Assembly: GCA_021795395.1 (NCBI GenBank)
Contig: JAJYPN010000008.1
Location: 1 to 64,000, forward strand
DNA from: Pseudomonadota bacterium
GTDB lineage: Bacteria > Pseudomonadota > Gammaproteobacteria > Burkholderiales > Sulfuriferulaceae
Reading direction: 5' to 3'
Length of the DNA: 64,000 nucleotides
The position numbers and the translations under genes are program-made. Position 1 is the stretch's first letter. Each line of letters starts with the position of its first letter. This document shows, piece by piece, positions 46,416 through 63,554 of this stretch. The notes beneath the pieces are model-generated. The model made no database searches. It had not been told where the DNA came from and saw only the letters and a list, made by a program, of their open reading frames with translations.

Positions 46416-47630
46416 TTACATCTTCCATGCGTAGGAAAGACCTACGATATCCTGATGCATGCTGATGCTTGTAGGGCCGAAAGCTGAATTACCGCTAAGC
46501 GAATTGTTGAAACCGTGAATGTACGACGCGTTCCATTCGCCGTTGCCGGTCAGATAGCTCGCACCCATGGTGAAGTGGTCGGTGATGACTCCGGGAGCAA
46601 TGACGTTAATGCCGATATTGGTCGCGGTGATCGGATCGTCGCCATGGTTCCAGCCGGCGCGCAGCAGCCAGTGTTCGTTATACTGATATTCGCCGCCGAG
46701 TTTCCAGACATTGACATCCTGCCAGCCGAAACCGGGGCCATAGGAGGAACCGAATTGAGTCTGTACATTGCTTTGATCGCCGATGGCGGATACACCGCTG
46801 TAATTGATACGTTCGTAATCCAGTGCGAGAGTCAGAGCGGGCTGGATTTTATAAGCCAGACCGACGCTGAAGTTCTCCGGCAGATCAAGACCGCCCTGAC
46901 CGGCGAACAGGCCGGAATACTTGCCCATTTTGGCAAAACTGACCTTGGTCGAATAATCGGCACCGAAGGTCAGATCCTGGGTGATTTTACTCATGTAACC
47001 GATGCGTACGCCGCCGCCGAACGCGCTGTCGTTACCCGTATTGGTCATACGCGTCGGGTTGGCAGACATCCCAGGCTGATCAAACGCTTGCAGACCTTGA
47101 GCCGAAAAACGCTCGTATCCGATCAGCGGCGAAATACCGATAGAATTTCTCTCATTGATCTTGTAGGCAAGAGTTGGCGCAATGATCATTTGCTCCAGAT
47201 TGACGCCCAGATTACCAGCTCCATGGAACAAATTCGAACCGCCAGCCAAAGGAGCATAGTCCGTATTCATACCGCCGTTGCCGTAGACGCTGACGCCCAG
47301 AGACAGATTGGAGGAAATCAGTTTGTTGTAACCGAATTCAGGGATCACAAAATAATTGGCGTCACTGTTCTCTTGCGTACCGCCGACACTTGCCTGACGT
47401 TGCGGGCTGAACAGATAAGCGCCCAGATCCATACGGTTGCCGACGAATACCATGCTGGCAGGGTTATTCGCGCCGCCCATCGTATCTTCGGCCATCGCTG
47501 CGGACGCGCCGCCCATACCGTTGGCAGCCATACCGTAACCGGATGCGAACATGCCGTTAGTTGCCATTGCTGCACCTGGCGCCGCCAGACCTGCAACCGC
47601 CATCACAGCGAATAATTTTTTCAATTTCAT
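46416..47630 (-). CDS. FadL/OmpP1/TodX-family outer-membrane porin
   Basis: Likely start MKLKKLFAVMAVAGLAAPGAAMATNGMFASGYGMAANGMGGASAAMAEDTMGGANNPA; C-terminal aromatic-containing beta strand VGLSYAWKM. Confidence 0.88.
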   Translation of the reverse strand: MKLKKLFAVMAVAGLAAPGAAMATNGMFASGYGMAANGMGGASAAMAEDTMGGANNPASMVFVGNRMDLGAYLFSPQRQASVGGTQENSDANYFVIPEFGYNKLISSNLSLGVSVYGNGGMNTDYAPLAGGSNLFHGAGNLGVNLEQMIIAPTLAYKINERNSIGISPLIGYERFSAQGLQAFDQPGMSANPTRMTNTGNDSAFGGGVRIGYMSKITQDLTFGADYSTKVSFAKMGKYSGLFAGQGGLDLPENFSVGLAYKIQPALTLALDYERINYSGVSAIGDQSNVQTQFGSSYGPGFGWQDVNVWKLGGEYQYNEHWLLRAGWNHGDDPITATNIGINVIAPGVITDHFTMGASYLTGNGEWNASYIHGFNNSLSGNSAFGPTSISMHQDIVGLSYAWKM

Positions 47631-47680
47631 TGTGTCATCTCCAAAAAAGTGTGAATCTTTGCACATAACCAAAATAACAA

Positions 47681-47812
47681 GGAACCTCTGAGCAAGCCTG
47701 CCATTTCCTCCCGGCTACTGTTCTCCGGTATCTGCGGCAGAACGTTTCCGTCGCGACTGCCCTGTCCTGTATTAGCCAACGCCAGCATTTACGCGGCTTG
47801 TTCAGAGGTTCC
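47681..47812. repeat. MITE-like inverted-repeat element, 132 bp
   Basis: GGAACCTCTGAGCAAGCC at 47681 and GGCTTGTTCAGAGGTTCC ending at 47812: 18-bp TIRs with one mismatch. Confidence 0.75.
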
Positions 47813-47960
47813 TCAGTAATACCTTGCCGAGCTATAGTACATCGTTAAACGGACACGGAACAAGTCAAAAGTGTTCGTCCCGACGTATTCTTGAATCTTT
47901 GTTACATTTTCGCAACAGTCGGGGGAGATGGCTTGATTTCGAAGAATTACATAAAGATAA

Positions 47961-47991
47961 AACCCCCTGAACGCGTAACATTCAGGGGGTT
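47961..47991 (-). terminator. Rho-independent terminator downstream of lipS2
   Basis: 11-bp perfect stem AACCCCCTGAA / TTCAGGGGGTT; minus-strand 3' side followed by TTTTATCTTTAT. Confidence 0.75.
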
Positions 47992-48014: not shown

Positions 48015-49151
48015 TTACAGCAAACCTGCGCCGATATTCTCACCGGCCATCTGCCGTTTTACGTTTTCCACGTCCTTGCGGGCGAGTGCGAACGGGAAGG
48101 AAAAGATGTCGGTAGGACTGGAATCTCCGTAAGGCCGATTGCAGGCCGATACTTCTTCATCGTCTTTGCCCGGGCAACCGGAGGTCTGGAACGGCTTGCC
48201 CGAATTGACCAGACCCGCCAGTTCGTCTTCCACCAGACCGAAATCGATTACAGCGCCGTTTTCGTCGAACAGCATCTTGCTGACATGGCCGCCGGCGTAG
48301 TCGATGATGAAACGGGCCAGTTGCACGCGCCGCCATTGGCCGCGATCGCAGGCCGGCCAGTCTTCCATCATCGAGCCTTGTTCGGGGAAGAAGGCGAACA
48401 TGTGATTGTGGCCGCCCATGTCCTTGATTTTTTGACAGACTTCCAGTATTTCCTGTTCGGTTTCGCCCATCCCGCAAATCAGGTGCGCGCCGAATTTTTC
48501 CGGGCCGAAAATCTCGGCTGCCCATTCGATGGCCTGCCAGTATTTTTCAAAGCGGTGCGGGCTGTCTACCGATTTGCCGCGGGTGCGCTCGAAAATGGCC
48601 GGCGTGACCGCGTCCAGCGCGACGGTAAAGATATCTGCGCCCATTTCTTTCAGATGCTGCAAATCTTTCTTTTCCATGGTCGTCGGGTTGGAGAGGATGG
48701 AAACCGGAATGTGCGGCAATTCCTTCATCCACTTGTCCAATAGCACGAAGGTATCGGAATCGGAATTCGGATGCGTGATCATCGAAATGCACATGCGCTG
48801 GAACTGGCCTTTGTCGTTACCCAGCTTGACGCGCTCGATCACGTCGTCATAGCGCGCAGTCGGCCATTCCACACGGATAAAGTTGCGGTCCGCATAATCG
48901 CGCGTCTCTTCCCTATGCCGCGCCAGTCCGCAATAGGTGCAATTGGCGCGGCAGCCTTCGGGATAGGTGACCAGCAGGTTCAGGCAATTGGTACAGGCGG
49001 TGCGATGCATGTTGCCCGGTACGAGGCCCAGAGTGATCGCTGCCGCCGTACTCATCTGCACATATTCGGGCGAACGCATTTCGGGCGTTTTGACGTGATA
49101 ATCAGGCCGATAGAATTGCACTACCTGGGGTTGATCTAAAACTGCGCTCAT
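48015..49151 (-). CDS. lipS2: Radical SAM lipoate synthase component LipS2-like
   Basis: GCRANCTYCGLARHREETRDYADRNFIRVEWP (CxxxCxxC radical SAM motif); last gene of the lipoate-assembly part of the sHdr locus. Confidence 0.8.
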   Translation of the reverse strand: MSAVLDQPQVVQFYRPDYHVKTPEMRSPEYVQMSTAAAITLGLVPGNMHRTACTNCLNLLVTYPEGCRANCTYCGLARHREETRDYADRNFIRVEWPTARYDDVIERVKLGNDKGQFQRMCISMITHPNSDSDTFVLLDKWMKELPHIPVSILSNPTTMEKKDLQHLKEMGADIFTVALDAVTPAIFERTRGKSVDSPHRFEKYWQAIEWAAEIFGPEKFGAHLICGMGETEQEILEVCQKIKDMGGHNHMFAFFPEQGSMMEDWPACDRGQWRRVQLARFIIDYAGGHVSKMLFDENGAVIDFGLVEDELAGLVNSGKPFQTSGCPGKDDEEVSACNRPYGDSSPTDIFSFPFALARKDVENVKRQMAGENIGAGLL

Positions 49152-49185
49152 GCGGTTCTCCTTACAAGATAGAGTTATGAATACG

Positions 49186-50253
49186 TTATGCTACAAAATA
49201 GTCGGGAAAGGCGATCCACGCCTTGCGGTGCAGTTCGTCGTTTTGCGCCGCTTCGGTCTGCCAATACTGATTCAGCCAGCGACGCCGCTCTACCGCCCGA
49301 TTGAGCGTGACTTCGAATTGATCGCGTATGTCTTCTTCAAAATCGGCCAGCGCGCCAACTTGTGCGCCCTGCAAATACGCTGCCGCAGCCTGCCCGGCTC
49401 GTTCGCCGGAGAGGACGGCGGCCGAAATCCCGGCGCCGGTAATCGGATGCGTCAATCCGGCGGCATCGCCGGTAAACAATACGTTATCGACAACCAGATG
49501 CTCGCGCATTCCGCCGACAGGAATCGCGCCGCCGGTGCGATAAACGATCTGCTCGCCGACGAGGTCTTGCGCCACCAGTTGTTTGTGCAATGCATCCAGC
49601 GGCGCCTTCATATCGTCCGCGTAACGTTTGTCCAGGCCCAGACCCAGATTCGCCCACTTGCCTTTGGGAAACAGCCAGGCATAGCCGCCGGGATAGTCGG
49701 CCGACAGCCAGATATCCGTGTCGGCGTATTCGTGCGTAAGCGGCACGGTATATTGCCGCGTGCTGACGAGTTCCAGTTCAGGCAGATGCAGCGCCGCAGC
49801 GACCGCCGAATGAGGGCCGTCGGCGGCGACGAGCAGTCGGTAATCCACTGTCGCATCGCCATCGGCCGTCTTGATCCGTGCACGATGGCAACTGTGGTCG
49901 AGTCCGTTCAAACGGCTGTTCATCCACAACTCCGCGCCGTATCGGCGGGCCTGCTGCGCGAGCGCCTGGTCGAACGCGGCGCGATCTATCATCAAACCCG
50001 GGAATGCCGTATCTTCCATCGAACCCGACGGCAAGTAGCTTTTCATACCGCGTATCGCCTGATAGATGACGCCGTCGCATTGGGCGTACGTGCCCAGCGG
50101 CAGGGGAATGAATTCCGCACATTGCACGGGTACGCCTATTTCGTGGCGCCGGTCTATTGCGATGACTGACAACCCCTTTGCTGCTGCCGCTGCCGCTGCC
50201 GCAGCACCGGCGGGTCCGAGTCCGATAATCAGAACGTCCGCCTTGCTGTTCAT
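49186..50253 (-). CDS. lipT: FAD-dependent oxidoreductase LipT-like (geranylgeranyl reductase family)
   Basis: VLIIGLGPAGAAAAAAAAAKGLSVIAIDRR; VLFTGDAAGLTHPITGAGISAAVLSGERAG; between sLpl and lipS2. Confidence 0.78.
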   Translation of the reverse strand: MNSKADVLIIGLGPAGAAAAAAAAAKGLSVIAIDRRHEIGVPVQCAEFIPLPLGTYAQCDGVIYQAIRGMKSYLPSGSMEDTAFPGLMIDRAAFDQALAQQARRYGAELWMNSRLNGLDHSCHRARIKTADGDATVDYRLLVAADGPHSAVAAALHLPELELVSTRQYTVPLTHEYADTDIWLSADYPGGYAWLFPKGKWANLGLGLDKRYADDMKAPLDALHKQLVAQDLVGEQIVYRTGGAIPVGGMREHLVVDNVLFTGDAAGLTHPITGAGISAAVLSGERAGQAAAAYLQGAQVGALADFEEDIRDQFEVTLNRAVERRRWLNQYWQTEAAQNDELHRKAWIAFPDYFVA

Positions 50254-51329
50254 GCTATCACTCCCGATGTCGCCAGCGCTTCGCCTAACAGGCTGACCAC
50301 ATCCTCAGGCGCCAATGTCAGCATATCGACGGTACGTTCCTGGAAAAACTCAAGTACGATCGTTTCCATTCGTTCGGCGGCGCTATCCCGCAATGCCGCT
50401 TCCAGATCGATCAGGGTGCGGCGCGGACTGATAAATACATCGCCGCTGAACCAAACCTGTTTAAGGCGCTGATGTGTCTGGTCGTAAGCGATATTCACGC
50501 GCAACATGCCGCCGCCGAATTTACGCACTGCGGTCAAGACGGGTCTGTCTGCGGCCGGTTGCGTCAGCATATCCACCCAATCGGGGTGATCGATCTGCGT
50601 CAGCGCTTCGGCATATAGTTCCTGTTCCTGCGGATTGAGCTCGCCCGGATTCATTTCGACATCGAATTCCTCCGCCAGCGCGTCCGCAATCAACGCGATC
50701 ACAGTATTTCTTGCCGGCACACTGCCCGTTAATTCGGCAAGGCTGGTCACACGCTCGCGCGCCGACGCTATCGCCTTGTCCGATAATTTTTCCGCCGGAA
50801 TATTCAATACGCGCAACATTAATTCGACATCGAAATCGATGAGCAACGTACCCTGATACATCAAGGCGTCGCCGTCGAAAGCGCCGCCGGTGCCGCCTAT
50901 TTTCCTTCCATGAACTTCCAGATCGTTGCGTGGGCGGAATTGGGCGGCAATACCCAGTCGCGAAATGCCGCCGGCAACGGCAACGCAAATGCGCCGGGCA
51001 ATCGCGGTCATATCGGCGGTACCGAGTTCGTGCTTGTGCAAATACAGCTCCCAGCCTAATTGACGGTCATCGCAATAGAGCGCTCCGCCGCCGGTAATGC
51101 GCCTTTGCACTGTAATCGCATGGTTGCGGCAATAGTCCAGATCGAGTTCCTGGGCAGCGCTCTGATGAAAACCGAGCAATGCCGACGGCTGAAATCCCAG
51201 AAAACGCAAGGTGCTGGGGGTAATACCCTGCTGGCGTCCCGTCAACAGGGACTGATTTAATGCTATGTTCTCTGCCGCCGGGCGTATTCCGGTATCCAGC
51301 AAGCGCCAGACGGGTCGATTTGACGCCAT
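50250..51329 (-). CDS. Lipoate:protein ligase-like, sLpl(AB)
   Basis: LplA-like core WRLLDTGIRPAAENIALNQSLL, RRITGGGALYCDDRQLGWELYLHK, RNDLEVHGRKIGGTGGAFDGDALMYQGTLLID, plus C-terminal accessory region. Confidence 0.85.
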   Translation of the reverse strand: MASNRPVWRLLDTGIRPAAENIALNQSLLTGRQQGITPSTLRFLGFQPSALLGFHQSAAQELDLDYCRNHAITVQRRITGGGALYCDDRQLGWELYLHKHELGTADMTAIARRICVAVAGGISRLGIAAQFRPRNDLEVHGRKIGGTGGAFDGDALMYQGTLLIDFDVELMLRVLNIPAEKLSDKAIASARERVTSLAELTGSVPARNTVIALIADALAEEFDVEMNPGELNPQEQELYAEALTQIDHPDWVDMLTQPAADRPVLTAVRKFGGGMLRVNIAYDQTHQRLKQVWFSGDVFISPRRTLIDLEAALRDSAAERMETIVLEFFQERTVDMLTLAPEDVVSLLGEALATSGVIA

Positions 51330-51330
51330 G

Positions 51331-52503
51331 TCAGCTGCAACATCCGCCGACTGCTTCCGGCATTCCGCTGGTCACCACCTTTATCCCCGCCAGCGCGCCG
51401 CCGAAGCCTGGGCGTTTCGCGCGCTCGTGCGCGATGACACGTTCGATATCGACTTGCAAGCCCGATTCGCTGGTTTCTATCGCCATGACTTCGTCGCCGA
51501 TAGCGATGGAACAGCAGGCTGGCGTTACGCGCACATTGCGTTCCAGCCGCACCGCCAGTTCGACCATGCCGTCTGAGGGATGAGCGATACCGTTCAGCCC
51601 CGCCATCACCGCATAGCTGTCGATTTCCATTTTGGCGCGGCCGGGCGGACGCGCGCAGCCCAGCAGTAATGGCACATCAGGCAGAGCCTTGCGCGCATCC
51701 ATGAAGAACCGGCCCACTTCGCTGCTCTGCGGCGTGACGAACGGGCGATTTTCCGGTGCGTAAAACGGCATGACCACTACCAGCACGACGGCTTGCGGCG
51801 TATGCCTTCTGATCATTTCCAGCGCATTCCATTCGCCGAGCAAATTGCCGTAATGCAAGCCTATGACTATGTGCGGCACCACCTTGAGCGTCGTCGAGAC
51901 CAGGTATTCCAGCGTTTTTTCAAAATCGTCCACCGTACGGCGCAGATGATAGACCTGCGTGATGGTATCCTGCGAGCCGATAACATCCATCATGGCCGCA
52001 TCGATTCCGCAATCCTCCATGCGACGCGCAATATCCATATCGACCAGTGCGGTATGCATGGCTATTTTAAAATTCGGAAACGTATCCTTGATACGGCGTA
52101 TGGTCGAATAATAATCGCCATATTCAACTTCATTGCGATGGTTCGATCCGCCCGTCAGCAACATCCCCTGTGCTCCGCCGTTGATCTGCTCATTGACGGT
52201 GCGCCATAAATCTTCCGGTGTTCTTGCCGCGATCATCGGTTCCAGAATTTTGGCTTTGCAGTGATCGCACTGTAACTTGCAGTCGCCGCCGGTAATCGAG
52301 ATCGCCGGCCACGCACTTTTTCCGCAACCGCTAATTTCGGAGCTGGCATAGGCTTTAAAGGTGGGCGTATAAAAGTTGACGCGGCCGATGTGATCGCCCG
52401 CCATGCCTGCAAACTGTTTCTGCATGCCGCTTACCAGACCGGCATCCAGATCGATACCTTCCAGCGGTTCTACCCGCTCGATAACTTCCAGCCAATTACT
52501 CAT
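51331..52503 (-). CDS. lipS1: Radical SAM lipoate synthase component LipS1-like
   Basis: ISITGGDCKLQCDHCKAKILEPM (CxxxCxxC); 1-bp gap to the sLpl gene. Confidence 0.8.
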   Translation of the reverse strand: MSNWLEVIERVEPLEGIDLDAGLVSGMQKQFAGMAGDHIGRVNFYTPTFKAYASSEISGCGKSAWPAISITGGDCKLQCDHCKAKILEPMIAARTPEDLWRTVNEQINGGAQGMLLTGGSNHRNEVEYGDYYSTIRRIKDTFPNFKIAMHTALVDMDIARRMEDCGIDAAMMDVIGSQDTITQVYHLRRTVDDFEKTLEYLVSTTLKVVPHIVIGLHYGNLLGEWNALEMIRRHTPQAVVLVVVMPFYAPENRPFVTPQSSEVGRFFMDARKALPDVPLLLGCARPPGRAKMEIDSYAVMAGLNGIAHPSDGMVELAVRLERNVRVTPACCSIAIGDEVMAIETSESGLQVDIERVIAHERAKRPGFGGALAGIKVVTSGMPEAVGGCCS

Positions 52504-52507
52504 GCTT

Positions 52508-52777
52508 AGGGCTCGCTAATAAATAACATGGACATACGCTGGGGTTGTTTTGGGCGCAGACCAAGGCGCAGGACGCGCGGTTGTGTCATTCACAACAAGC
52601 GGCTTGCAACACCGGTATGCGCCCAAAACAACTCCAGCCCGGAGGGTTACTGCGTATTCGCGCGTCTGCGGCGTTGCAAAGCTTGCTAATGGAATAACCA
52701 TACGCTGCGCTTCGCGCCTTGCATCCATCGCGCCTACGCAGTAACGTTTGTTCAAGTTATTCATTAACGAGCCCATA
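52508..52777 (-). repeat. TIR-bounded dispersed repeat, long copy with nested 84-bp module
   Basis: GGGCTCGCTAATAAATAAC at 52508 and GTTATTCATTAACGAGCCC near 52777 are imperfect inverted repeats; interior matches 25019-25199 apart from an extra block bounded by GTTACTGCGTA ... TACGCAGTAAC. Confidence 0.85.
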
Positions 52778-52918
52778 GCCTTAATCCCTGATTACAACAG
52801 GGTCTTGCGCCTCAAGAAAACAATAGGGGCGATAAATCACCCCTATTATCCTTATTTTCCAACCGATTTTGCCTGGTTGGAATCGTTCGCGTGACCGAAG
52901 CATACGGCCTGCGGACAG

Positions 52919-53356
52919 TTAGCAGCCGCCGAATCCGTCCGCATTCATTTTTGCTTCAAAGCCACTTGCGACAGCAGCGCCAGTTACCAGAGAGCCGGAT
53001 TCGCCTTCCCAGTTGGTGGGTTTCATTTTAACCAGCCAGCCGCTACCGTAAGGATCGTGGTTAATGGTGCCGGGTTTTGCCGCCACATCAGCGTTAGTCG
53101 CAATTATTTCGCCCGTAACCGGGGCCTTGACTGGTCCGACCCATTTACCGGATTCTACGGTACATACCGATTTGTTCTGCTCGATTTCCTTACCTGCCTT
53201 TTTGGGGGTGTAGGAAACGATTTCGCCGGCCAGCGAGCAGGCATATCCGGTCATCCCTATGGTCAAAGTGCCGTCCGCTTCTCGCCGCGCCCATACGTTA
53301 TTGTCAACGTTATAGTAAAGATCGTCCGGAAGGTTGCAACCACGTACTGTCGCCAT
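52919..53356 (-). CDS. lbpA2: Lipoate-binding protein LbpA2 (GcvH-like)
   Basis: LYYNVDNNVWARREADGTLTIGMTGYACSLAGEIVSY...CTVESGKWVGPVKAPVTGEI: lipoyl domain with ESGKW lysine. Confidence 0.88.
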   Translation of the reverse strand: MATVRGCNLPDDLYYNVDNNVWARREADGTLTIGMTGYACSLAGEIVSYTPKKAGKEIEQNKSVCTVESGKWVGPVKAPVTGEIIATNADVAAKPGTINHDPYGSGWLVKMKPTNWEGESGSLVTGAAVASGFEAKMNADGFGGC

Positions 53357-53419
53357 ACTTATTTCTCCTCAAATTTAAATACAAAAAATTACCCGTAAAA
53401 TTTTGCTGATTACCTAATT

Positions 53420-53815
53420 TCAAAAAAACATGGATTTGTCACAAGCCAATATCAGATCGGCCATTTTGCCCGCGTTCGCAATTTCATCCACTTCGTCGAT
53501 GATATCGGTATCGCTAAGCTTATAACCCGGCATGGCCGGCTTGCACAGGTATAATCTTACCCCAGCTGATTTTGCATCACGAATAAATTCTATAATTGTT
53601 TTACCGCCTTCCATGGCAGCCAGGTTTTCGGCGATACCGTTCTGCCCCAGTTTAACGCCTTCCATGGTAAGGAATACGCTCACCTCGGCGTCCATGGAGG
53701 CCAATATCGCGCTGATATAAAAGGGCGTAGCGCAACGGTGCGGGGTAGAAGGCCCGCTGCTCATCACGATTACCACCGATTTTTCTTCGTTGTCCAGGTA
53801 ATGTTCGTCTGACAT
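53420..53815 (-). CDS. DsrE-family sulfur-transfer protein
   Basis: VVIVMSSGPSTPHRCATPFYISAILASMDAEVSVFLTMEGVKL...LILACDKSMFF; lies between the two lbpA genes. Confidence 0.8.
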   Translation of the reverse strand: MSDEHYLDNEEKSVVIVMSSGPSTPHRCATPFYISAILASMDAEVSVFLTMEGVKLGQNGIAENLAAMEGGKTIIEFIRDAKSAGVRLYLCKPAMPGYKLSDTDIIDEVDEIANAGKMADLILACDKSMFF

Positions 53816-54262
53816 TTATCGCGCGCCTCGTTCGCAGTGTATATCTTCCTTACGCGCGCGTTCGCAATATCCGGACTGCGCTTCATTTCCCGTAATCATG
53901 CCGGCCAGCGCTTCTTCCGGAGTGCCGGTAGGGCGGACCCGAGCTATCCAGGCTTCGTAAGGTTCGATGTTGAGCAGATTCGGGTCTTCGAGCACATTTT
54001 GATTGGCTTCTTCGATGGTGCAATCGAAGACATTGGGGACCGGGCCGGCCCATTTACCGCTTTCTATGGTTGCTACGGGCTTTCCTATCGGTCTCAAGGT
54101 TCCTGGTCTGCGTACACGGACATGCAGTATCTTACCTGCGACCGTCTGGGAAATATCCGTCATGCCGACCGTCAGGCTGCCATCTTCTTCCCGACGCGCC
54201 CAAATCTGATATTGATCATCGTAGTATAATTCTGATCTAAACTCGCAGCCGTTACAATCCAT
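53816..54262 (-). CDS. lbpA1: Lipoate-binding protein LbpA1 (GcvH-like)
   Basis: Likely start MDCNGCEFRSELYYDDQYQIWARREEDGSLTVGMTDISQTVAGKILHV...VATIESGKWAGPVPN. Confidence 0.88.
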   Translation of the reverse strand: MDCNGCEFRSELYYDDQYQIWARREEDGSLTVGMTDISQTVAGKILHVRVRRPGTLRPIGKPVATIESGKWAGPVPNVFDCTIEEANQNVLEDPNLLNIEPYEAWIARVRPTGTPEEALAGMITGNEAQSGYCERARKEDIHCERGAR

Positions 54263-54351
54263 AGCTTCATGCACTCGGGCAAATTGATTAATATGGTTCA
54301 AGCAAACGGACAGCAAGCGCCCAAGCGCTCGCTTTAACCGTTTTCAATGTT

Positions 54352-55263
54352 TTAAACCACGCCCTTATCGTGCAGAAAGTCCAGGGAATCACTTACGTTC
54401 TCATGTACGCCCAGTTTACGTGCAGACAATCCCATGGCCAGACCGAGCAATTGCGTAAAATACAGAATCTTGACTTGAGTTTTGATACCGAATTCCGTTT
54501 CGGCGCGCACCTGGTGCATTTCCAGCCCGGAATGGCAGGTCGGGCATTCGGTGGCGATCACTTCGGCGCCAGCATCTTCAGCCGCCTGAATGATATTCAA
54601 TACCAATTGGGTCGAGGTATCGGCATCGGAAAGCGTATGCGCGCCGCCACAACACGCCGTTTTCAACGGGAAATCGACATTGACTGCGCCTGCGGCAGCC
54701 AGCAGGTCGTCCATGAAATGTGGCTTGTAGCTGGATTCACTACCGTGACCCTGATCCTTTTCAGGAAATATCTGGCGCGGACGCGTATACATACACCCGT
54801 AGTAATTGGCTATCTTGATGCCGTTCAAACTTTTGGAAATCTTTTGTTTGATCCCGTCCGTGCCCAAATCTTCCATCAGCCATTCCAGCAAATGGATAGT
54901 GCGCACGTCGCCCTTATAGACCGGATCGTCGGATTTTTTTGCCAGATCCTGCAAGGTATTCAGCGTATCCTTGGACGTCGCCAATTCGTATTCGGCTTTT
55001 TTGAGGTTGTTATAGCAACCATTGCAAGGCGCCATCACCGTATCGTATCCCATTTGCTCACCGGTTATCGCCATGACGCGTGCGGACATATAGGTTTGCA
55101 GCATGGGATGGATATTTTTGACTTCCATGGCGCCGCAACAGTTCCAGTCATGCACGGTTTCCATTTCCAGGCCCAGGCTTTTTACCAATGCACGGGTAGA
55201 CCGGTCATACGGGCCGCCGGAGCCTTCCAGCGCGCATCCGGGATAATAGGCTACTTTAGCCAT
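54352..55263 (-). CDS. hdrB2: sHdrB2 (heterodisulfide reductase subunit B-like)
   Basis: VAYYPGCALEGSGGPYDRSTRAL...DWNCCGAMEV...TACCGGAHTL: CCG domains. Confidence 0.9.
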   Translation of the reverse strand: MAKVAYYPGCALEGSGGPYDRSTRALVKSLGLEMETVHDWNCCGAMEVKNIHPMLQTYMSARVMAITGEQMGYDTVMAPCNGCYNNLKKAEYELATSKDTLNTLQDLAKKSDDPVYKGDVRTIHLLEWLMEDLGTDGIKQKISKSLNGIKIANYYGCMYTRPRQIFPEKDQGHGSESSYKPHFMDDLLAAAGAVNVDFPLKTACCGGAHTLSDADTSTQLVLNIIQAAEDAGAEVIATECPTCHSGLEMHQVRAETEFGIKTQVKILYFTQLLGLAMGLSARKLGVHENVSDSLDFLHDKGVV

Positions 55264-56059
55264 GAGTGAACTCCTTTTGTTCTTTCACATATTGGCTTAG
55301 CACTTCACCAGTGCGGCCCCACGATTTTGTTTTGGGCTTGAATATCATCGACAAGCCCATATGCATCGAATGCATAAGCGGTGTGCGCGTCAGAAACCTG
55401 AACACATTACCTTTGCGCAAATCGGTCCATTTGTTCATCCGCGCAACGAATATGCCCAACCAGCCGTGCAGCGCCATTTCTTTCAAATTCTGATTCGTAT
55501 TCTTGAAAAAATTCGTCATCACCTCAGAATCTTCAATTCGACCACGCACCAGGCATTGACGCGAAAATTCCTCATCGAATATAGTTGAGTTGGATTTTGC
55601 GCCAAATCCTTCAGCTTCTATCCAATGCGCCAGAGCTTTCATGACACCTTCAGGCTTGACGTCTTTAGGACAGATATTGGTGCATTTGTTGCACGATACG
55701 CACTGCCAGATGATATCTTTATCCTTAAGGATTTCATCTTTCAAGCCTAGCCGGGTCAGATAGATCCAGTACCGGGGATTGAAATCGGTGTTCTGCGCAT
55801 ACATCGTGCACGAGTTGGTGCATGAACCGCATTGCCAGCACCGGTGTACGTTTTCGGCTCCGGCATAGCTTTTTATGTGATCCTCGAATCCGTCATCATA
55901 CTCTTTGAGCGTACGCGGCAGGATCATGGTATTCCAGTGCCCCGAGACATCTACGCCATCGACCACCAGAGTGTCGCTGGTAACCAATCGGTTGGGATCA
56001 ATCAGCGTTTTTTCATGAATTGCCATCAAGCTTCTCCTAAATTCTTCAATATCCGTCAA
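55256..56059 (-). CDS. hdrC2: sHdrC2 (heterodisulfide reductase subunit C-like, 4Fe-4S)
   Basis: VHRCWQCGSCTNSCTMY and WQCVSCNKCTNICPKDVKPEGVM. Confidence 0.9.
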   Translation of the reverse strand: MTDIEEFRRSLMAIHEKTLIDPNRLVTSDTLVVDGVDVSGHWNTMILPRTLKEYDDGFEDHIKSYAGAENVHRCWQCGSCTNSCTMYAQNTDFNPRYWIYLTRLGLKDEILKDKDIIWQCVSCNKCTNICPKDVKPEGVMKALAHWIEAEGFGAKSNSTIFDEEFSRQCLVRGRIEDSEVMTNFFKNTNQNLKEMALHGWLGIFVARMNKWTDLRKGNVFRFLTRTPLMHSMHMGLSMIFKPKTKSWGRTGEVLSQYVKEQKEFTHG

Positions 56060-56095
56060 GCGGTCCCGGTTTTTAAAACGCCCGCATCGCTTTAC

Positions 56096-56968
56096 TCATG
56101 ATGCGAAATCTCGTTTTACTCTCGACAGACCTACCTTGGCGGGAGCATCAATCCCCAAAAATTTCTTTACATAATCGGCGGGTCCGCTTGCTCGACCGAA
56201 ATCCGCACTGAGCATGCCCTCAGCCATCGATCGGAAATACTCCGAGTAGGCCTGCGCCAGCATAAGATCGACCCAATAATGGACGTCCTTATACAAACCC
56301 TGCTCCGCCAGTTGTTCAGCCAACCAGACGCGTGCGCCTTCATAAGTTTCCGGACTGCTGCCCAAAGGTACTGTGGACATGGAATCATTACCGCGTATAA
56401 ATTCCCTGAGCGCGCCGCTTACGGTATTCTGATCCCATACCCATCGCGTCATCAGAGGATATTTCAGCGGATCATTAAAATGCAGCAGTTCCGCACCAAA
56501 ATCAAACATTGCACGCCGATTTTTAGCTGCGGCCTTACGCGCTTCCTTGTCCGATGCTTCATCTATGGCAACCAGTTCCGAAAAGCGCGACATACGGTCT
56601 TGCAAGGGGTTCTGACCATAGAGCAACTCTCTGATTGCAGCGACGGCGGATTGCGAACCCATCGTTGTAAAAACGAAATATACCCGGCGTCTTGCGGAAA
56701 ATACCGTTTCCAGCAGCGCTTCAACACCTTCCAGCGTCAATTGATCGATAGCGTCCTGTTTGAGCAGCAGGGAGAACAATTGGTGCTTCGCCTCCAGGCT
56801 GTTCAAAAAACCTTCTATGCCGCCATCCTCATCGGTATTATGCCTGAGTGCCGTATAGCGCTGCTGAAACTGTGCGGCATCGAGCGGCACTGACAGGCTC
56901 GCCGGAACGATCAAGTCAGTTTCACTTGCTGCCGCCGCGAGATCAGGCTGCTTTTTGAACCACAGCAT
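56096..56968 (-). CDS. Conserved hypothetical protein of sHdr clusters (Hyp)
   Basis: 290-aa ORF positioned between hdrA and hdrC2; no recognisable catalytic motif by eye. Confidence 0.8.
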   Translation of the reverse strand: MLWFKKQPDLAAAASETDLIVPASLSVPLDAAQFQQRYTALRHNTDEDGGIEGFLNSLEAKHQLFSLLLKQDAIDQLTLEGVEALLETVFSARRRVYFVFTTMGSQSAVAAIRELLYGQNPLQDRMSRFSELVAIDEASDKEARKAAAKNRRAMFDFGAELLHFNDPLKYPLMTRWVWDQNTVSGALREFIRGNDSMSTVPLGSSPETYEGARVWLAEQLAEQGLYKDVHYWVDLMLAQAYSEYFRSMAEGMLSADFGRASGPADYVKKFLGIDAPAKVGLSRVKRDFAS

Positions 56969-57998
56969 TCATATCACCCACCGCGCGCATGGCCATGGCC
57001 AACCCGTGCGAAATACTGGTATCAATGTCTTCCGGGCCCAATGCTGCGCCACCGACATAAATACCGCGCCTGGTGCTGCTAAAGCTGCTGGTATATTGTT
57101 CGCCTTTATCCACGAATCCGTGTTTTTCGAGACCGATTCCGAATACCTTGGAAAGCTCGGGGTTTTCTTCATTGGGGTCCATGCCGATTGCATGCACGAC
57201 GATATCCATCGGTATGACGATAGGGCGCTTCACCAGCGTATCTTCGCCCTTAACCAGCAAACGGCCGTCTGCCGACTGGGTTACTTCTGCAATTCGGGCC
57301 TTGACAAACTTGGTCTTGAATTCTTCCTGCGATTTCCAGTAGAACTTGTCTTCATAAAGACCGAAAGTACGTATGTCCATGTAATATATAAAGACTTCCG
57401 TAGCAGGAGAAATCTCCTTGATTTCCATGGCAAGATTGGTGGAGACGGTGCAGCAGATTTTTGAACACCATTCACGGCCGATCTGCCGATCGCGCGACCC
57501 AACGCACAACAGGATTGCCACACGTTCAGGCACGCGCCCATTCGATGGGCACGCAATTTTCCCGCTACCGACCATTTGCTCCATTTGAGTCGTGGTCAAT
57601 ACGTCTTCGTACGTTCCAAATCCCCATTCCGGTTTGTTGATGGAATCGAAATGGGTGAATCCCGTACCCAAAATGATACTGCCGACATTAGCGGTTTGCC
57701 CATTGGAGAATTTCACCGTGAAATTGCCCGCCTCGCCGTCCACTTTTACCACCTTGGTGGATTTGTGTATCGTCACATTGGCATTTTCTTCCACGCGCTT
57801 GATCATACGGCCTATCGCGTCCTTTGCCCATTCGCCGGATGGAACCAGCTTTGCATAGCCCGACAAAATCGGCGCGCCACCAAGCACAGCTTCCTTTTCG
57901 ACTAAAATGACTTTTTTGCCGATAGAAGCCACACCTGCCGCAGCAGATAAACCGGTCGGGCCTGCCCCCACTACTAAAACGGTATCAGACATCTTCAA
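56943..57998 (-). CDS. hdrA: sHdrA (FAD-dependent HdrA-like flavoprotein)
   Basis: VLVVGAGPTGLSAAAGVASIGKKVILVEKEAVLGG; LLCVGSRDRQIGREWCSKICCTVS; GIYVGGAALGPEDIDTSISHGLAMAMRA. Confidence 0.92.
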   Translation of the reverse strand: MKMSDTVLVVGAGPTGLSAAAGVASIGKKVILVEKEAVLGGAPILSGYAKLVPSGEWAKDAIGRMIKRVEENANVTIHKSTKVVKVDGEAGNFTVKFSNGQTANVGSIILGTGFTHFDSINKPEWGFGTYEDVLTTTQMEQMVGSGKIACPSNGRVPERVAILLCVGSRDRQIGREWCSKICCTVSTNLAMEIKEISPATEVFIYYMDIRTFGLYEDKFYWKSQEEFKTKFVKARIAEVTQSADGRLLVKGEDTLVKRPIVIPMDIVVHAIGMDPNEENPELSKVFGIGLEKHGFVDKGEQYTSSFSSTRRGIYVGGAALGPEDIDTSISHGLAMAMRAVGDMNAVVQKAA

Positions 57999-59338
57999 TG
58001 GCCTCCTAATGCCAGCTCTGGGTTATATAAATACTCAATATTGCCTGCTTCAACTTCTTTCAGATACGATTCAAAGGTTTTCTTGGCATCGGTCCAGGAT
58101 ATGCCCATTTTTTCGACCAGGTCTTCACATGGAGAAGCATGCCATTGCAGCTGAACGATCTTGAACGGGTCTGCACCGCATGCCAGGGCAGCGAATTGTA
58201 CGTCCGCCATGATAGGCACCGCGAAATCGTTGTCGTGCGCCTTACCGATCCACTGGTTTTTATCCATGGTAGTGATACAGCCGGTATCGATGCCGAGCAG
58301 CACGTCGGCATTGGCTTCTTCGCGAGCAACGCGAATCTTGCGGTCCATCGTAAACGAACGCGTAAATTCTCGCTCGGAAATGATATGACGGAAGCCGAAA
58401 CCGCAGCAGTCGTACCAGGTCGAGTAATCGATGAGTTGCGCGCCCAGAGCCAGCGCCACCGAGCTTCCTACCGCCGTGCGGTTGCCGCCCAGAATTTCCG
58501 GGTCGTAAATGGCATCTTCGTGTACCATTTTATAGTAATGGCAGGCTGCATGCATGGTGACACGGATATTGGAGACGTCGATGGTCTGCAGTTCGGATGC
58601 AATGCGGTTGCGCATTACGTGCACCCATTCGGAATAATGAATGATCTCTTCGGGTATGACGAGTTTGCCGTCCACCAGACGACCGAGCTTGCCCAGTATC
58701 TTGGTGACACGCTCGCGCAGTTCGGCGGATTCAACCAGATACTTGCGGATTTCCTTGTAATTGCCGAACGAAGTGCCGCAATGAACCAGCGGGTAAAAAT
58801 GGCCGGCTTCGAATCCGTGTTGCTGACCGGATATATAGGCCTGATGGAAATTACGCATGAATACGGCCGCCAGCGATTCGACATTACCGATACCGGAACC
58901 GTGATAGTTCCAGGCAGTGCAGGAAGTCTGGTCGGTCTCGTCCAGATAATCCTTGCCCGGAACATAATTGAATTTATTCATGAACCACATCAACGATGTG
59001 GGATAGCCGGGAATATTGCCGCACTGACCGCAGGATTTATGATGCCACAATTGCTTGGTAGGGACTCTTTTGTTCCAGCCGAACAAGGTCTGCACGTCAA
59101 CCGGCTCATGCGCGTCGGTAATACGGTGAACGATGATCTGGCCGTCCTTTTCCAACTCCCACATATGGTCGCGTATGTCGTCCATACGCTCGCCCAGGTC
59201 GACGGTACGTTTGTCTACATGCTTGCGCACCCATTCGGTGGCTTTTGCGGCTTCCGCTCCGGAAAGGTTGGTTTGCTGGAAGAATGAACCGTGTCCTGCA
59301 ATTCCCTGGCTTTCACTGCTGTTAGCTATGTCGCTCAT
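57995..59338 (-). CDS. hdrB1: sHdrB1 (heterodisulfide reductase subunit B-like)
   Basis: LWHHKSCGQCGNIPGYPTSLMWFMNKFNYVPG; HAACHYYK; WYDCCGFGFRH. Confidence 0.9.
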   Translation of the reverse strand: MSDIANSSESQGIAGHGSFFQQTNLSGAEAAKATEWVRKHVDKRTVDLGERMDDIRDHMWELEKDGQIIVHRITDAHEPVDVQTLFGWNKRVPTKQLWHHKSCGQCGNIPGYPTSLMWFMNKFNYVPGKDYLDETDQTSCTAWNYHGSGIGNVESLAAVFMRNFHQAYISGQQHGFEAGHFYPLVHCGTSFGNYKEIRKYLVESAELRERVTKILGKLGRLVDGKLVIPEEIIHYSEWVHVMRNRIASELQTIDVSNIRVTMHAACHYYKMVHEDAIYDPEILGGNRTAVGSSVALALGAQLIDYSTWYDCCGFGFRHIISEREFTRSFTMDRKIRVAREEANADVLLGIDTGCITTMDKNQWIGKAHDNDFAVPIMADVQFAALACGADPFKIVQLQWHASPCEDLVEKMGISWTDAKKTFESYLKEVEAGNIEYLYNPELALGGH

Positions 59339-59380
59339 GGTGAACCTCCTGATAAATTAATTAAAGAATTGATGGAACGA

Positions 59381-60061
59381 TCAGCCTTCCTGCTCTTCCA
59401 GCCACTCATCGTATTCTTCACGCTTTTCGTCGATAAAATCTTCGATCACGTCGAACAGATTTTCGTCCATTGCCTCCAGGGAAGAGAGCACGCCGGTCAT
59501 TTCCCAAATGGTATACATTTCAACCGAAGTCTTCAGGGAAACTTCCCAAGCGGTATCCGTAGTCTGCAACGTACGTACCGGAATCGCTTTTCGCAGGGTT
59601 TTCAGGTCGCCCTCAACCTTCTGGATGTTGGGGCCCCAGTCAGGAAAATGATCGGGCTGGATCATGTCGGGTGAAAGCTGGTTACCCGTCGTAATCAGCT
59701 TCAACATGACGCGACCGAAAGGGCGCAACACATCTTTTGCCGATTGCATGCCGTGCTTGATGGAAACTTCGCGCATGATCATGACCAGGCCGCCCGGCGA
59801 ATTTTTGAACGGGCAGCGTGCGGCGCAAGTCATGCATTGCGCGCAGGCCCAGATTTTTTCCTGCATTGCATCATAAATCTGCTCTATGTTTTCCGTCCAA
59901 AGCAACTGGACGATTTCACGCGGACTGTAATCATAAAACTGTGCGGACGGACAGGTAGCCGTACATATGCCACAATTCAGACATCCGTTCAATTCATGAT
60001 CGTAGCGAAAATCACCACGAATATCATCGTAGATCTCGCGCATTTCAGCGTAAGTTGCCAT
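59381..60061 (-). CDS. hdrC1: sHdrC1 (heterodisulfide reductase subunit C-like, 4Fe-4S)
   Basis: ELNGCLNCGICTATCPSAQFYDYSPREIVQL; WACAQCMTCAARCPFKNSP. Confidence 0.92.
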   Translation of the reverse strand: MATYAEMREIYDDIRGDFRYDHELNGCLNCGICTATCPSAQFYDYSPREIVQLLWTENIEQIYDAMQEKIWACAQCMTCAARCPFKNSPGGLVMIMREVSIKHGMQSAKDVLRPFGRVMLKLITTGNQLSPDMIQPDHFPDWGPNIQKVEGDLKTLRKAIPVRTLQTTDTAWEVSLKTSVEMYTIWEMTGVLSSLEAMDENLFDVIEDFIDEKREEYDEWLEEQEG

Positions 60062-60314
60062 TATGCACCTCTCAGTTATATGCCGTATTCATTAAACTGG
60101 TAGCTACTAAGCGCAGTAGTCCAGACTTAAAAATATCAAGACGAGAACAATACCATTTCCATCAAGAAATAGCCAGATTTTGAAACTATCCGCTTACAGC
60201 GTCCAGTTAGTGACAGTTCGGCTGATCGCCTTACTGCTTTGGGCAACGCGAGGGGAATTTTGTTCCCCACTTTATTACCTGAGTGTGCTTAATTTCGATT
60301 TCGCACTCTATCTT

Positions 60315-60824
60315 TCATGTATATAAACAAATATCGGAATCGCCCGCAAATTCGAAAAACGCGGCCGCGCCGGCATATTCCATCCCGTCAATGAAATTGC
60401 TATGATCAAAACCAAAAAGCTCTACCGTCATTTGGCATGCAATGAACTTCACATCCGCTTCCTGGCACATTGCACGCAGATCATGAACGGTAGCAACGCC
60501 ATTATTGGAGATGGTTCGTTTCATCAGCACGGTCGCCAGAGATTCGTAACCCGGAATAATCGCCTGGATCGCATTGGGCATATTCCAGTTGATTCCGCGG
60601 AACCATTTTGGCCCGAAAGGCATCTTCATGGGCATGCCCGGATTTCCCAGCGGACTTACCTTGAGCACGGAAAGATCCTTGCGTACCAGTTGCAGGCCGT
60701 AGAATGTGAAAAAAATCTCAACCGAATAATCCAGTGCAGCCGCCGTCGACGCCAAAATAAACGGAGGATAAGCCCAATCCAGAGTTCCCTTGGTGGCGAT
60801 GATCGCAAGTTTCTTTTGATCCAT
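60315..60824 (-). CDS. DsrE2-like sulfurtransferase family protein
   Basis: KLAIIATKGTLDWAYPPFILASTAAALDYSVEIFFTFYGLQLVRKD...VKFIACQMTVELFGF. Confidence 0.85.
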   Translation of the reverse strand: MDQKKLAIIATKGTLDWAYPPFILASTAAALDYSVEIFFTFYGLQLVRKDLSVLKVSPLGNPGMPMKMPFGPKWFRGINWNMPNAIQAIIPGYESLATVLMKRTISNNGVATVHDLRAMCQEADVKFIACQMTVELFGFDHSNFIDGMEYAGAAAFFEFAGDSDICLYT

Positions 60825-60893
60825 GTCAGCTCCTTTTCTTTCTTATAATATTCACCGTTTACGCACTCGTGTCCGGCAATACCGTATCCGGCC

Positions 60894-61121
60894 TTACTTC
60901 TTTTTCATGAAAAAGGTAAATTCGCCACCGGCTTGCGCAGAAGACAACAACTCGTTACCCGTTTGCTTTGCAAAAGCCTCGAAATCCTTGATCGCGCCCG
61001 GGTCCGTTGCAACAATTTTCAATACTTGGCCAGCCCCCAGTTCTCCCAGGCTTTTTTTGCAACGCAAAATAGGCAAAGGACAGTTCAAACCACGCGCATC
61101 GAGTTCTTTATCAAAGTTCAT
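60894..61121 (-). CDS. tusA: Sulfur carrier protein TusA
   Basis: LDARGLNCPLPILRCKKSL...ATDPGAIKDFEAFAKQTGNEL. Confidence 0.95.
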   Translation of the reverse strand: MNFDKELDARGLNCPLPILRCKKSLGELGAGQVLKIVATDPGAIKDFEAFAKQTGNELLSSAQAGGEFTFFMKKK

Positions 61122-61194
61122 TTCTTGTCTCCATCAAATTGAAAATAAAACGCAAATTACGCCCATAATATAATTATTGGGCGCTCCCATCGAT

Positions 61195-61515
61195 TCAAAT
61201 CGAAGAAAGTTGCTTGCCAGAGCGTATCCACCCCATGATTCCGCCCTGCAAATTATATACTTCGGTCAAACCTTTCGAGGTGGCGAATGCACAGGCCTGG
61301 GCCGAACGGCCTCCGGACTGGCAATAAAATACGACAGGGCGGTCTTCGGGCAAGTCCTGTATTTTCATGGGCAGCAAATGCAGAGGAATATGTACTGCCC
61401 CCTCAATTCCCCCTCTCGATACTTCCGCATCCGTACGCACATCGATCAACATGCAACCGGAAGCGGCTTTAAGTTGCTCCAGACCTTGCACATCGACTTC
61501 TTTGAAACCGTACAT
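61195..61515 (-). CDS. Single-domain rhodanese
   Basis: MLIDVRTDAEVSRGGIEGAVHIPL; VVFYCQSGGRSAQACAFA (active-site CQSGGR). Confidence 0.92.
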   Translation of the reverse strand: MYGFKEVDVQGLEQLKAASGCMLIDVRTDAEVSRGGIEGAVHIPLHLLPMKIQDLPEDRPVVFYCQSGGRSAQACAFATSKGLTEVYNLQGGIMGWIRSGKQLSSI

Positions 61516-61824
61516 AACCGCCCCAAGTTAATTAAAGCTTATTAATATACCAAAATACGCCAGCGATGCAAATAATTTCATGAAATATTTTCGTCAGCCT
61601 CTCCACGCCGGCGCTGCCTAGCCGTGGCTGTCATGTCCAAAAAAGAAAACGCATACTTGCACATATCCATATTATAACGCCAGCCATGGTTGCAGTTTAC
61701 GTTCCGCGGTTTCCATGCTACAGTCATATCCGTTTGCATTACCGTGCTGCAAGCCCTATTCGGCATCAATTTTCGTAGCAGCGTATCGAGCATCGCGCTC
61801 AGCAATAGACAGGAGCCTGACCCC

Positions 61825-62130
61825 GTGGATAAAAGCAATTTCAAGGAAAATACCCGTTATACCATTACCTGGCGAACTGCAGACGGCAAATTACGTCCTG
61901 CCAACATCTATATTTACAAATTGTTCGACAACGCAATGATTGCGCGCATGACCGACAAAAGCGGGTTTCTGTATAAAATAAATTATTCGGACATCACCAA
62001 AATTGTCGCCGAAATTCCCGTGACCAAAGAAAACCAGTTTACGATTCCCGCAGCGGTCCTGGACGAAAAAATCTGGAAGGATCGCACCATCATGGAACGG
62101 TATTCCACTTCGCCGCACATGGGAAAATAA
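61825..62130 (+). CDS. Small conserved hypothetical protein
   Basis: GTG start at 61825 preceded by AGGAG; VDKSNFKENTRYTITWRTADGKLRPANIYIYKLFDNAMIARMTDKSGFLYKINYSDITKIV. Confidence 0.65.
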   Translation: MDKSNFKENTRYTITWRTADGKLRPANIYIYKLFDNAMIARMTDKSGFLYKINYSDITKIVAEIPVTKENQFTIPAAVLDEKIWKDRTIMERYSTSPHMGK

Positions 62131-62279
62131 TTGAATACTTGAGTGCCGCCCCTCGCAGGGCGCCTCCGAAAATGAGTTCGCGATTTTCGAACTCGCGGGA
62201 TCGGCCTGTTGGCATCGACTTGACAATGCATAACCAAGCCATACACTAGAGACATCTATTTAAACGGATAACCTCTGGT

Positions 62280-63554
62280 TTGAACGAAATCCCTATTAGC
62301 GCGTTACTGCTGACATTGCTTGTGCTGTTGCTGCTTTCGGCTTTTTTTTCGGTTTCCGAAACGAGCATGATGGCGATCAACCGTTACCGTCTTCGCCATC
62401 TTGCGAAACAAGGGCATCGAGGGGCAATCCGAACCGCGGATCTGCTTGCCAATACCGACAAGTTGCTGGGCGTGATCCTGCTCGGCAACAATCTTATCAA
62501 TGCCGCATCGGCGACACTGGTCACCATTATTTCGATCCGGCTGTTCGGCAACAGCGAATGGGTGCTGGGCGAGGCGACGCTGGCCGTAACCTTTGCGATC
62601 CTCGTTTTCAGCGAAATCACACCCAAGGTTATCGGTGCCGCTTACCCCGACAAAATCGCCTACCCGGTCAGCTTTATTCTGCGACCCCTGCTTTCGTTTG
62701 CCTCCCCCATTGTATGGTTCGTCAATTTGTTCGTGCAGGGCTTGCTGAGATTGATGCGATTGAGGCCGAACGCCAACAACGATGAAAACATATTGGGCAT
62801 AGGCGAACTGCGCACGCTGGTAATGGAATCCGGCAAATTGTTGCCTGCCACTCACAAAAGCGTGTTGCTCAATCTTCTCGAACTGGAAAATATCACCGTC
62901 AACGATGTCATGACGCCGCGCCACCTGATCGAAGCCATCGCCATCAACGAATCGAGCGAGGTGATAACGCGACAGCTCACCAGCAGCCGGCATACGCGCT
63001 TACCGGTATACCGCGACCAGTTGAATGAAATCATAGGAATAGTTCATCTGCGCGCGTTGGCCAGGGATTTGCGTAACGACGATATCAATGCGCAAACCAT
63101 CACTGCCCATGCCCAGGCGCCGTACTTCATTCCATCCGGGACATTATTGTTTACCCAATTGCGACAATTCCAGGAGAACCAGCTCAGTCTTGGCCTGGTT
63201 GTCGATGAATACGGCGAATTGCTGGGACTGGTTACGCTGGGCGATATTCTGGAAGAAATGGTGGGTGAACTCGACATTAGCGCGCATGCCAGATTTTCCG
63301 GGTACATTCCGCAAACCGATGGCAGCTGGCTGGTCGAGGGGACCAGCACTATCCGCCAGATCAATCGTAGATTGAAGTTCGATCTTCCCGATCATGGCCC
63401 AAAAACCATCAACGGTTTGATCCTGGAGCATCTGGAAGCCATTCCCGAGCCAGGCACTACGCTCAAGATCGCGGAATATCCCATAGAAATTATCCAGGTG
63501 CAGGAACGACTCGTAAAAACGGCACGGATTTTCCCGAGACTAAATACGCCCTGA
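62280..63554 (+). CDS. HlyC/CorC-family transporter (CNNM/DUF21 + CBS + CorC_HlyC)
   Basis: TTG start; N-terminal TM DUF21 region; VNDVMTPRHLIEAI, LSLGLVVDEYGELLGLVTLGDILEEMVGEL. Confidence 0.9.
   Translation: MNEIPISALLLTLLVLLLLSAFFSVSETSMMAINRYRLRHLAKQGHRGAIRTADLLANTDKLLGVILLGNNLINAASATLVTIISIRLFGNSEWVLGEATLAVTFAILVFSEITPKVIGAAYPDKIAYPVSFILRPLLSFASPIVWFVNLFVQGLLRLMRLRPNANNDENILGIGELRTLVMESGKLLPATHKSVLLNLLELENITVNDVMTPRHLIEAIAINESSEVITRQLTSSRHTRLPVYRDQLNEIIGIVHLRALARDLRNDDINAQTITAHAQAPYFIPSGTLLFTQLRQFQENQLSLGLVVDEYGELLGLVTLGDILEEMVGELDISAHARFSGYIPQTDGSWLVEGTSTIRQINRRLKFDLPDHGPKTINGLILEHLEAIPEPGTTLKIAEYPIEIIQVQERLVKTARIFPRLNTP

Follow-up and report, generated by a model that had tools for sequence, protein, structure and literature searches.

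Group I shdr-lbpA clusters, defined in 2018 (PMC6067878), are the closest described relatives of the locus analysed here, which lies in a 64,000-nucleotide stretch (the window: positions 1 to 64,000 of contig JAJYPN010000008.1, forward strand, assembly GCA_021795395.1) of a genome that belongs to Sulfuriferula, the genus of Sulfuriferula multivorans. The Thioalkalivibrio operon reads hdrC1B1A-hyp-hdrC2B2-lbpA1-dsrE-lbpA2, with dsrE between lbpA1 and lbpA2 in all hdr-bearing genomes of that genus (PMC6382920). A maturation block, lipS1-slpl-lipT-lipS2-lipY, has been published as well, and lipY, a putative fatty-acid transporter gene, adjoins lipS2 in Thioalkalivibrio sp. K90mix (PMC10332631). 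Experiments in Hyphomicrobium showed that making sulfite from thiosulfate depends on LbpA2 and sLpl; published work also has sLpl take free octanoate or lipoate as its substrate and LipS2 act ahead of LipS1 (PMC10332631, PMC6067878). For Sulfuriferula itself, hdrABC, a partial Sox system (three of four genomes) and soeABC have been reported (PMC12285272).

The window carries 16 genes on the minus strand, running from 61515 to 48015 in the order rhd-tusA-dsrE2-shdrC1-shdrB1-shdrA-hyp-shdrC2-shdrB2-lbpA1-dsrE3-lbpA2-lipS1-slpl(AB)-lipT-lipS2. We read them, with very little doubt, as a Group I shdr-lbpA locus of the standard kind in a Sulfuriferula species, which would oxidise sulfane sulfur to sulfite in the cytoplasm. 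Pfam and NCBIfam agree on the gene identities. Start codons were re-set by comparison with relatives for lbpA1 (54262), hdrC2 (56026), hdrA (57992) and the downstream fadL/lipY gene (47630). The features, in the direction of the genes, are as follows:

61195..61515, minus: rhd, rhodanese-like sulfurtransferase (PF00581, 73 bits; active-site CQSGGR)
60894..61121, minus: tusA, sulfur carrier (PF01206, 81 bits; CPLP)
60315..60824, minus: dsrE2, sulfur carrier (NF047629, 252 bits, exceeding the cut-off of 210)
59381..60061, minus: shdrC1 (HdrC models; two CxxCxxCxxxCP, i.e. two [4Fe-4S] motifs)
57995..59338, minus: shdrB1, CCG-type catalytic subunit (PF02754; NF041780, 113 bits)
56943..57992, minus: shdrA, flavin adenine dinucleotide (FAD) subunit, start moved to ATG (best PDB match 6TJR, E 3.6e-137, which we take to be the HdrA-like protein of Hyphomicrobium denitrificans)
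56096..56968, minus: hyp, sHdr-specific protein (syntenic homologue in 24 of 24 loci)
55256..56026, minus: shdrC2, two [4Fe-4S] motifs (HdrC models and paired CxxCxxCxxxC)
54352..55263, minus: shdrB2, CCG domains (PF02754 in two stretches; TIGR03288, 161 bits; full CX(n)CCX(n)CxxC)
53816..54262, minus: lbpA1, lipoate-binding protein (PF01597; LbpA1 clade, 100/99; ESGKW lysine; N- and C-terminal cysteines)
53420..53815, minus: dsrE3-type sulfurtransferase (PF02635, 64 bits; position between lbpA1 and lbpA2)
52919..53356, minus: lbpA2, lipoate-binding protein (PF01597; groups with proteobacterial LbpA2 proteins; ESGKW, N-terminal cysteine, C-terminal GGC)
52520..52865, no strand: intergenic insert separating lbpA2 from lipS1 (possible terminator; inverted repeats)
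51331..52503, minus: lipS1, radical SAM lipoyl synthase (NF053742 as best match; CxxxCxxC)
50250..51329, minus: slpl(AB), lipoate:protein ligase (PF21948, 151 bits; LplB match at residues 271-352; RRITGG)
49186..50253, minus: lipT, FAD oxidoreductase (GG-reductase superfamily TIGR02032, 198 bits; synteny)
48015..49151, minus: lipS2, radical SAM lipoyl synthase (NF053743 as best match; CxxxCxxC)
47961..47991, minus: strong intrinsic terminator after lipS2 (14-pair stem with 7 GC, 3-nt loop, T-rich tail)
46416..47630, minus: FadL/Toluene_X outer-membrane porin, probable lipY (PF03349, 96 bits; synteny)

The genetic features that mark Group I sHdr-LbpA systems are found: the shdrC1B1A-hyp-C2B2 core with its FeS, CCG and FAD subunits, linked LbpA proteins with the conserved lysine and the N- and C-terminal cysteines (as described in PMC6067878), and maturation genes within the same cluster as the core. 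A sequence check of the rhodanese, TusA, HdrC, HdrB2, LbpA, radical SAM and ligase proteins found the catalytic motifs intact, and the shdrC1 product is ~99% identical in four congeners. The first-pass annotation had called this an apparently complete sHdr sulfur-oxidation locus, and all 16 genes, with their domains and motifs, were recovered in the order and span it gave; the gene identities behind the sHdr-LbpA function that it proposed hold too, and the function itself would follow the published systems. Hyp has no family match in Pfam or NCBIfam, and a structure predicted from its single sequence (predicted local distance difference test score 42) was discarded as unusable.

Comparison was made with 24 loci from one bacterial class, three of them incomplete at the upstream end. 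The core gene order is common to 23 of the 24, dsrE lies between lbpA1 and lbpA2 in 23, and the order lipS1-slpl-lipT-lipS2 recurs in 22. Within the genus, sHdrB1 is present in 17 of 18 genomes; across the class, sHdrB2 was detected in 22 of the 369 genomes sampled. Since the core order recurs so widely and is published in Thioalkalivibrio, the locus is not unusual, and nor is its pair of sulfur-delivery modules. We therefore rejected the earlier suggestion that two such modules in one locus are less routine: the intervening dsrE is found in nearly all loci compared here and in every hdr-bearing Thioalkalivibrio genome (PMC6382920). The locus is a clean example of an already published pathway, ordinary for Sulfuriferula, and its value is that of a complete annotated example.

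The window shares with the Thioalkalivibrio Group I clusters their genes, their order, the LbpA1/LbpA2 pair flanking dsrE, the maturation block and the porin, but differs in a 415-bp lbpA2-lipS1 gap with an insert and in a terminator before the porin. The four congeneric loci that were retrieved in full all have this gene order; the window differs from relatives that carry soe genes upstream in having none there, and its genome holds an extra intact shdrB1 on another contig. The Hyphomicrobium denitrificans cluster (shdr-lbpA2 with lipS1-lipT-lipS2-slpl(AB)-lipX) represents the same pathway, but has a single LbpA, another order of maturation genes, and lipX.

A route for sulfur can be proposed on this basis. 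The gene set, motifs, synteny and SoxB-without-SoxC background come from the present analysis; the reaction order and the sulfite product are taken from published work on Hyphomicrobium, Thioalkalivibrio and Thermococcus. A truncated Sox system would act on thiosulfate and leave sulfane sulfur, which would be brought into the cytoplasm; SoxB is present in 18 of 18 genus genomes, SoxC exceeds its cut-off in just one of them (G003), and in the present genome SoxC is absent save for a 23-bit match. Rhodanese would then presumably hand the sulfane sulfur to TusA, DsrE2 and DsrE3, and these in turn to LbpA1 and LbpA2, which would present it to the sHdrC1B1A-Hyp-C2B2 complex for oxidation to sulfite, with electrons going to a presumed final acceptor. 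sLpl would octanoylate or lipoylate LbpA, using free acid that the FadL porin (LipY) may bring in, octanoate uptake being conjectural for this porin. LipS2 and then LipS1 would insert sulfur, with LipT as their probable electron donor.

This lipoate pathway is additional to a canonical one. The first-pass annotation had envisaged a dedicated assembly line in place of LipA and LipB and had proposed looking for lipA, lipB and soxCD elsewhere in the genome. The LipS1/S2-sLpl-LipT pathway stands, but genes of LipA/LipB type are present too: LipA lies on contig C13 beside a LipB-sized gene of LplA/B fold, and a second canonical lipA lies in a gcv operon next to gcvH (G000:C43:3680-6130, L023). The dedicated pathway is likewise additional in all sulfur oxidisers analysed previously (PMC6067878). 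Contig C13 also carries the second shdrB1 (G000:C13:76062-77573; L050:10062-11573), intact and ~90% identical. Its neighbours are SCO1, FGE-sulfatase-like and multicopper/cytochrome c genes, with no other hdr genes, and a complete second sHdr system was therefore rejected in favour of a lone paralogue. Two shdrB1 copies also occur in one congener.

From hdrC1 to lbpA2 and from lipS1 to lipS2, junctions are overlaps or at most ~90 bp. Two gaps are wide: 253 bp between dsrE2 and hdrC1, and 415 bp between lbpA2 and lipS1, where congener L054 has ~68 bp. Inverted repeats lie in the latter, as does a putative ATAGGGG/CCCCTAT stem with TGTTTTCTT after it. Given these gaps, repeats and the possible terminator, the locus may be read as more than one transcript.

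At its downstream end, the strong hairpin with which the first-pass annotation closed the locus is present (47991-47961), yet that boundary falls one gene short. A FadL/Toluene_X gene at 47630-46416 lies beside lipS2, past the terminator, and its synteny is kept in each of the four congeneric loci examined and in several other loci. It is probably lipY; because it fits the published gene, the locus reaches beyond the earlier limit at 48015. Upstream of the FadL gene, at 47680-47813, are 19-nt inverted repeats (AGGAACCTCTGAGCAAGCC) 96 nt apart, with the look of a small mobile element.

Two other readings of the locus were weighed. One takes the GcvH-like genes for duplicates encoding the H protein of glycine cleavage, with the Hdr genes working in some other redox process. 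LbpA2 does score 120.9 against the cut-off of 117 of the broad GcvH subfamily model NF002270, but it falls below the GcvH equivalog TIGR00527 (89.5 versus 115.85), which LbpA1 fails as well. A genuine gcvH sits on contig C43 beside gcvT- and gcvP-like genes and lipA, GcvH forms a separate clade in the tree (100/99) with which neither LbpA groups, and the two lbpA genes are part of the sHdr operon. The assignment to LbpA is settled by the cysteine pattern, the ESGKW site, synteny and the tree; GcvH identity is ruled out by the tree, the cysteines and the separate gcv operon, and we give the duplication scenario next to no weight. A parallel question concerns the radical SAM genes, which the first-pass annotation had allowed might prove to be biotin synthase or LipA family members. 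LipS2 scores 24 bits with bioB and 21 bits with lipA, against 195 for the LipS2 model, and LipS1 matches neither bioB nor lipA. The LipS1 and LipS2 models are by far the best NCBIfam matches, though under curated cut-offs (199 of 230 and 195 of 270 bits), which are annotation thresholds and not biochemical criteria. We assigned both genes by best model match, the radical SAM CxxxCxxC motif and lipS1-slpl-lipT-lipS2 synteny, all of which were found. The refuting condition that the first-pass annotation based on such models has to be read with caution: the sub-threshold LipS1/LipS2 scores together with LbpA2 passing a GcvH model indicate that family-model names alone are misleading here; a broad curated model that labels LbpA2 'GcvH' is an annotation warning.

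The other reading leaves the locus intact but has it run in the reductive direction, or silent in this strain. Methanogen HdrABC homologues do work reductively, and a soeC-like gene, which bears on the fate of sulfite, was not found in this genome, although in a draft that is 92.8% complete its absence is not proven. In nine congeners soeC lies within a few kilobases of shdrB1, and 61516-62280 of the window, upstream of rhd, lacks the soe genes that congeners have there. Set against this are SoxB without SoxC, motifs that are all intact, high protein conservation across the genus, and the presence of hdrABC in sulfur-oxidising Sulfuriferula (PMC12285272); we consider a reductive or silent locus improbable. 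The soeC result, the NF002270 score of LbpA2 and the sub-threshold LipS1 and LipS2 scores all count against an oxidative sHdr-LbpA locus, as do the two wide intergenic gaps (253 and 415 bp) and the terminator ahead of fadL, which make a single transcript uncertain.

The carrier and lipoate modules appear separable from sHdr. At four loci of the class (L226, L227, L229 and L230), clusters of the form tusA-dsrE2 (or dsrE3)-lbpA2-lipS1-slpl-lipT-(lipS2) occur with no hdr genes nearby, and HdrB2 was not found in the genomes that carry them.

A by-product of the analysis matters more than the sHdr locus itself. Outside the window lies a gene for a third LbpA-like protein of 148 residues (LbpA3; G000:C30:15206-15652, L024:6207-6653). 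The protein shares ~45-49% identity with LbpA1 proteins from the genus and has the N-terminal cysteine, the ESGKW site and, at its C-terminus, CMRC. In the tree, LbpA3 (55 sequences, 96/95) is sister to LbpA1 (99/92) and apart from GcvH. It is apparently undescribed: literature searches for either a third LbpA or a pairing of LbpA with thioredoxin returned nothing relevant, which is weak evidence because subscription literature was poorly covered. Why some sHdr oxidisers have two LbpA types has been stated to be unexplained, the re-oxidation of dihydrolipoyl-LbpA in bacteria has been assigned tentatively to a shared E3 subunit, and a dihydrolipoyl dehydrogenase gene is not apparent in bacterial hdr clusters (PMC6067878). 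LbpA3, with its thioredoxin and membrane partners, supplies named genes for both questions.

LbpA3 tracks sHdr across genomes. It is present in 15 of 18 genus genomes and in 18 of the 369 class genomes: 17 of the 22 with HdrB2 and one of the 347 others, the latter being 75% complete. The association has a Fisher p of 5.5e-24, uncorrected for phylogeny, and the 17 genomes span 12 families. A scan of named genomes gave 39 proteobacterial LbpA3 loci, including some in Sulfuriferula, Acidithiobacillus, Thioalkalivibrio halophilus and Rhodobacteraceae; HdrB2 is found in 19 of the 20 genomes behind the named loci, and sHdr core genes lie near LbpA3 in none of the 39, within the 4-16 kb fetched. Three genus genomes that are at least 98% complete (G002, G007 and G009) have sHdr without LbpA3, so LbpA3 is not essential.

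Its neighbourhood suggests a partner. Thioredoxin lies within a few kilobases of LbpA3 in ~37 of the 39 loci. The usual order in Sulfuriferula and similar genomes is crp (opposite strand), a protein with four transmembrane segments (4-TM), lbpA3 and a thioredoxin-4-TM fusion, whose membrane segment is likewise COX1/NnrS-like; in Acidithiobacillus and Rhodobacteraceae the neighbour of lbpA3 is a small stand-alone thioredoxin. We infer that LbpA3 may exchange electrons or sulfur with dihydrolipoyl-LbpA. A fuller scheme, in which LbpA3 is lipoylated by the sHdr-linked sLpl/LipS enzymes and makes this exchange through thioredoxin, coupling the dihydrolipoyl pool to the membrane, is conceivable but rather doubtful. 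Foldseek with the fusion protein returned thioredoxins for the N-terminal domain, and nothing matched the membrane half convincingly; the AlphaFold model of the fusion predicts a thioredoxin domain and four helices. CxxC, H136 and H153 are invariant in the fusion, and H41, H43 and H60 in the COX1/NnrS-like 4-TM protein beside lbpA3, each of whose 19 members has a weak COX1 match (under the Pfam cut-off for the one displayed in full).

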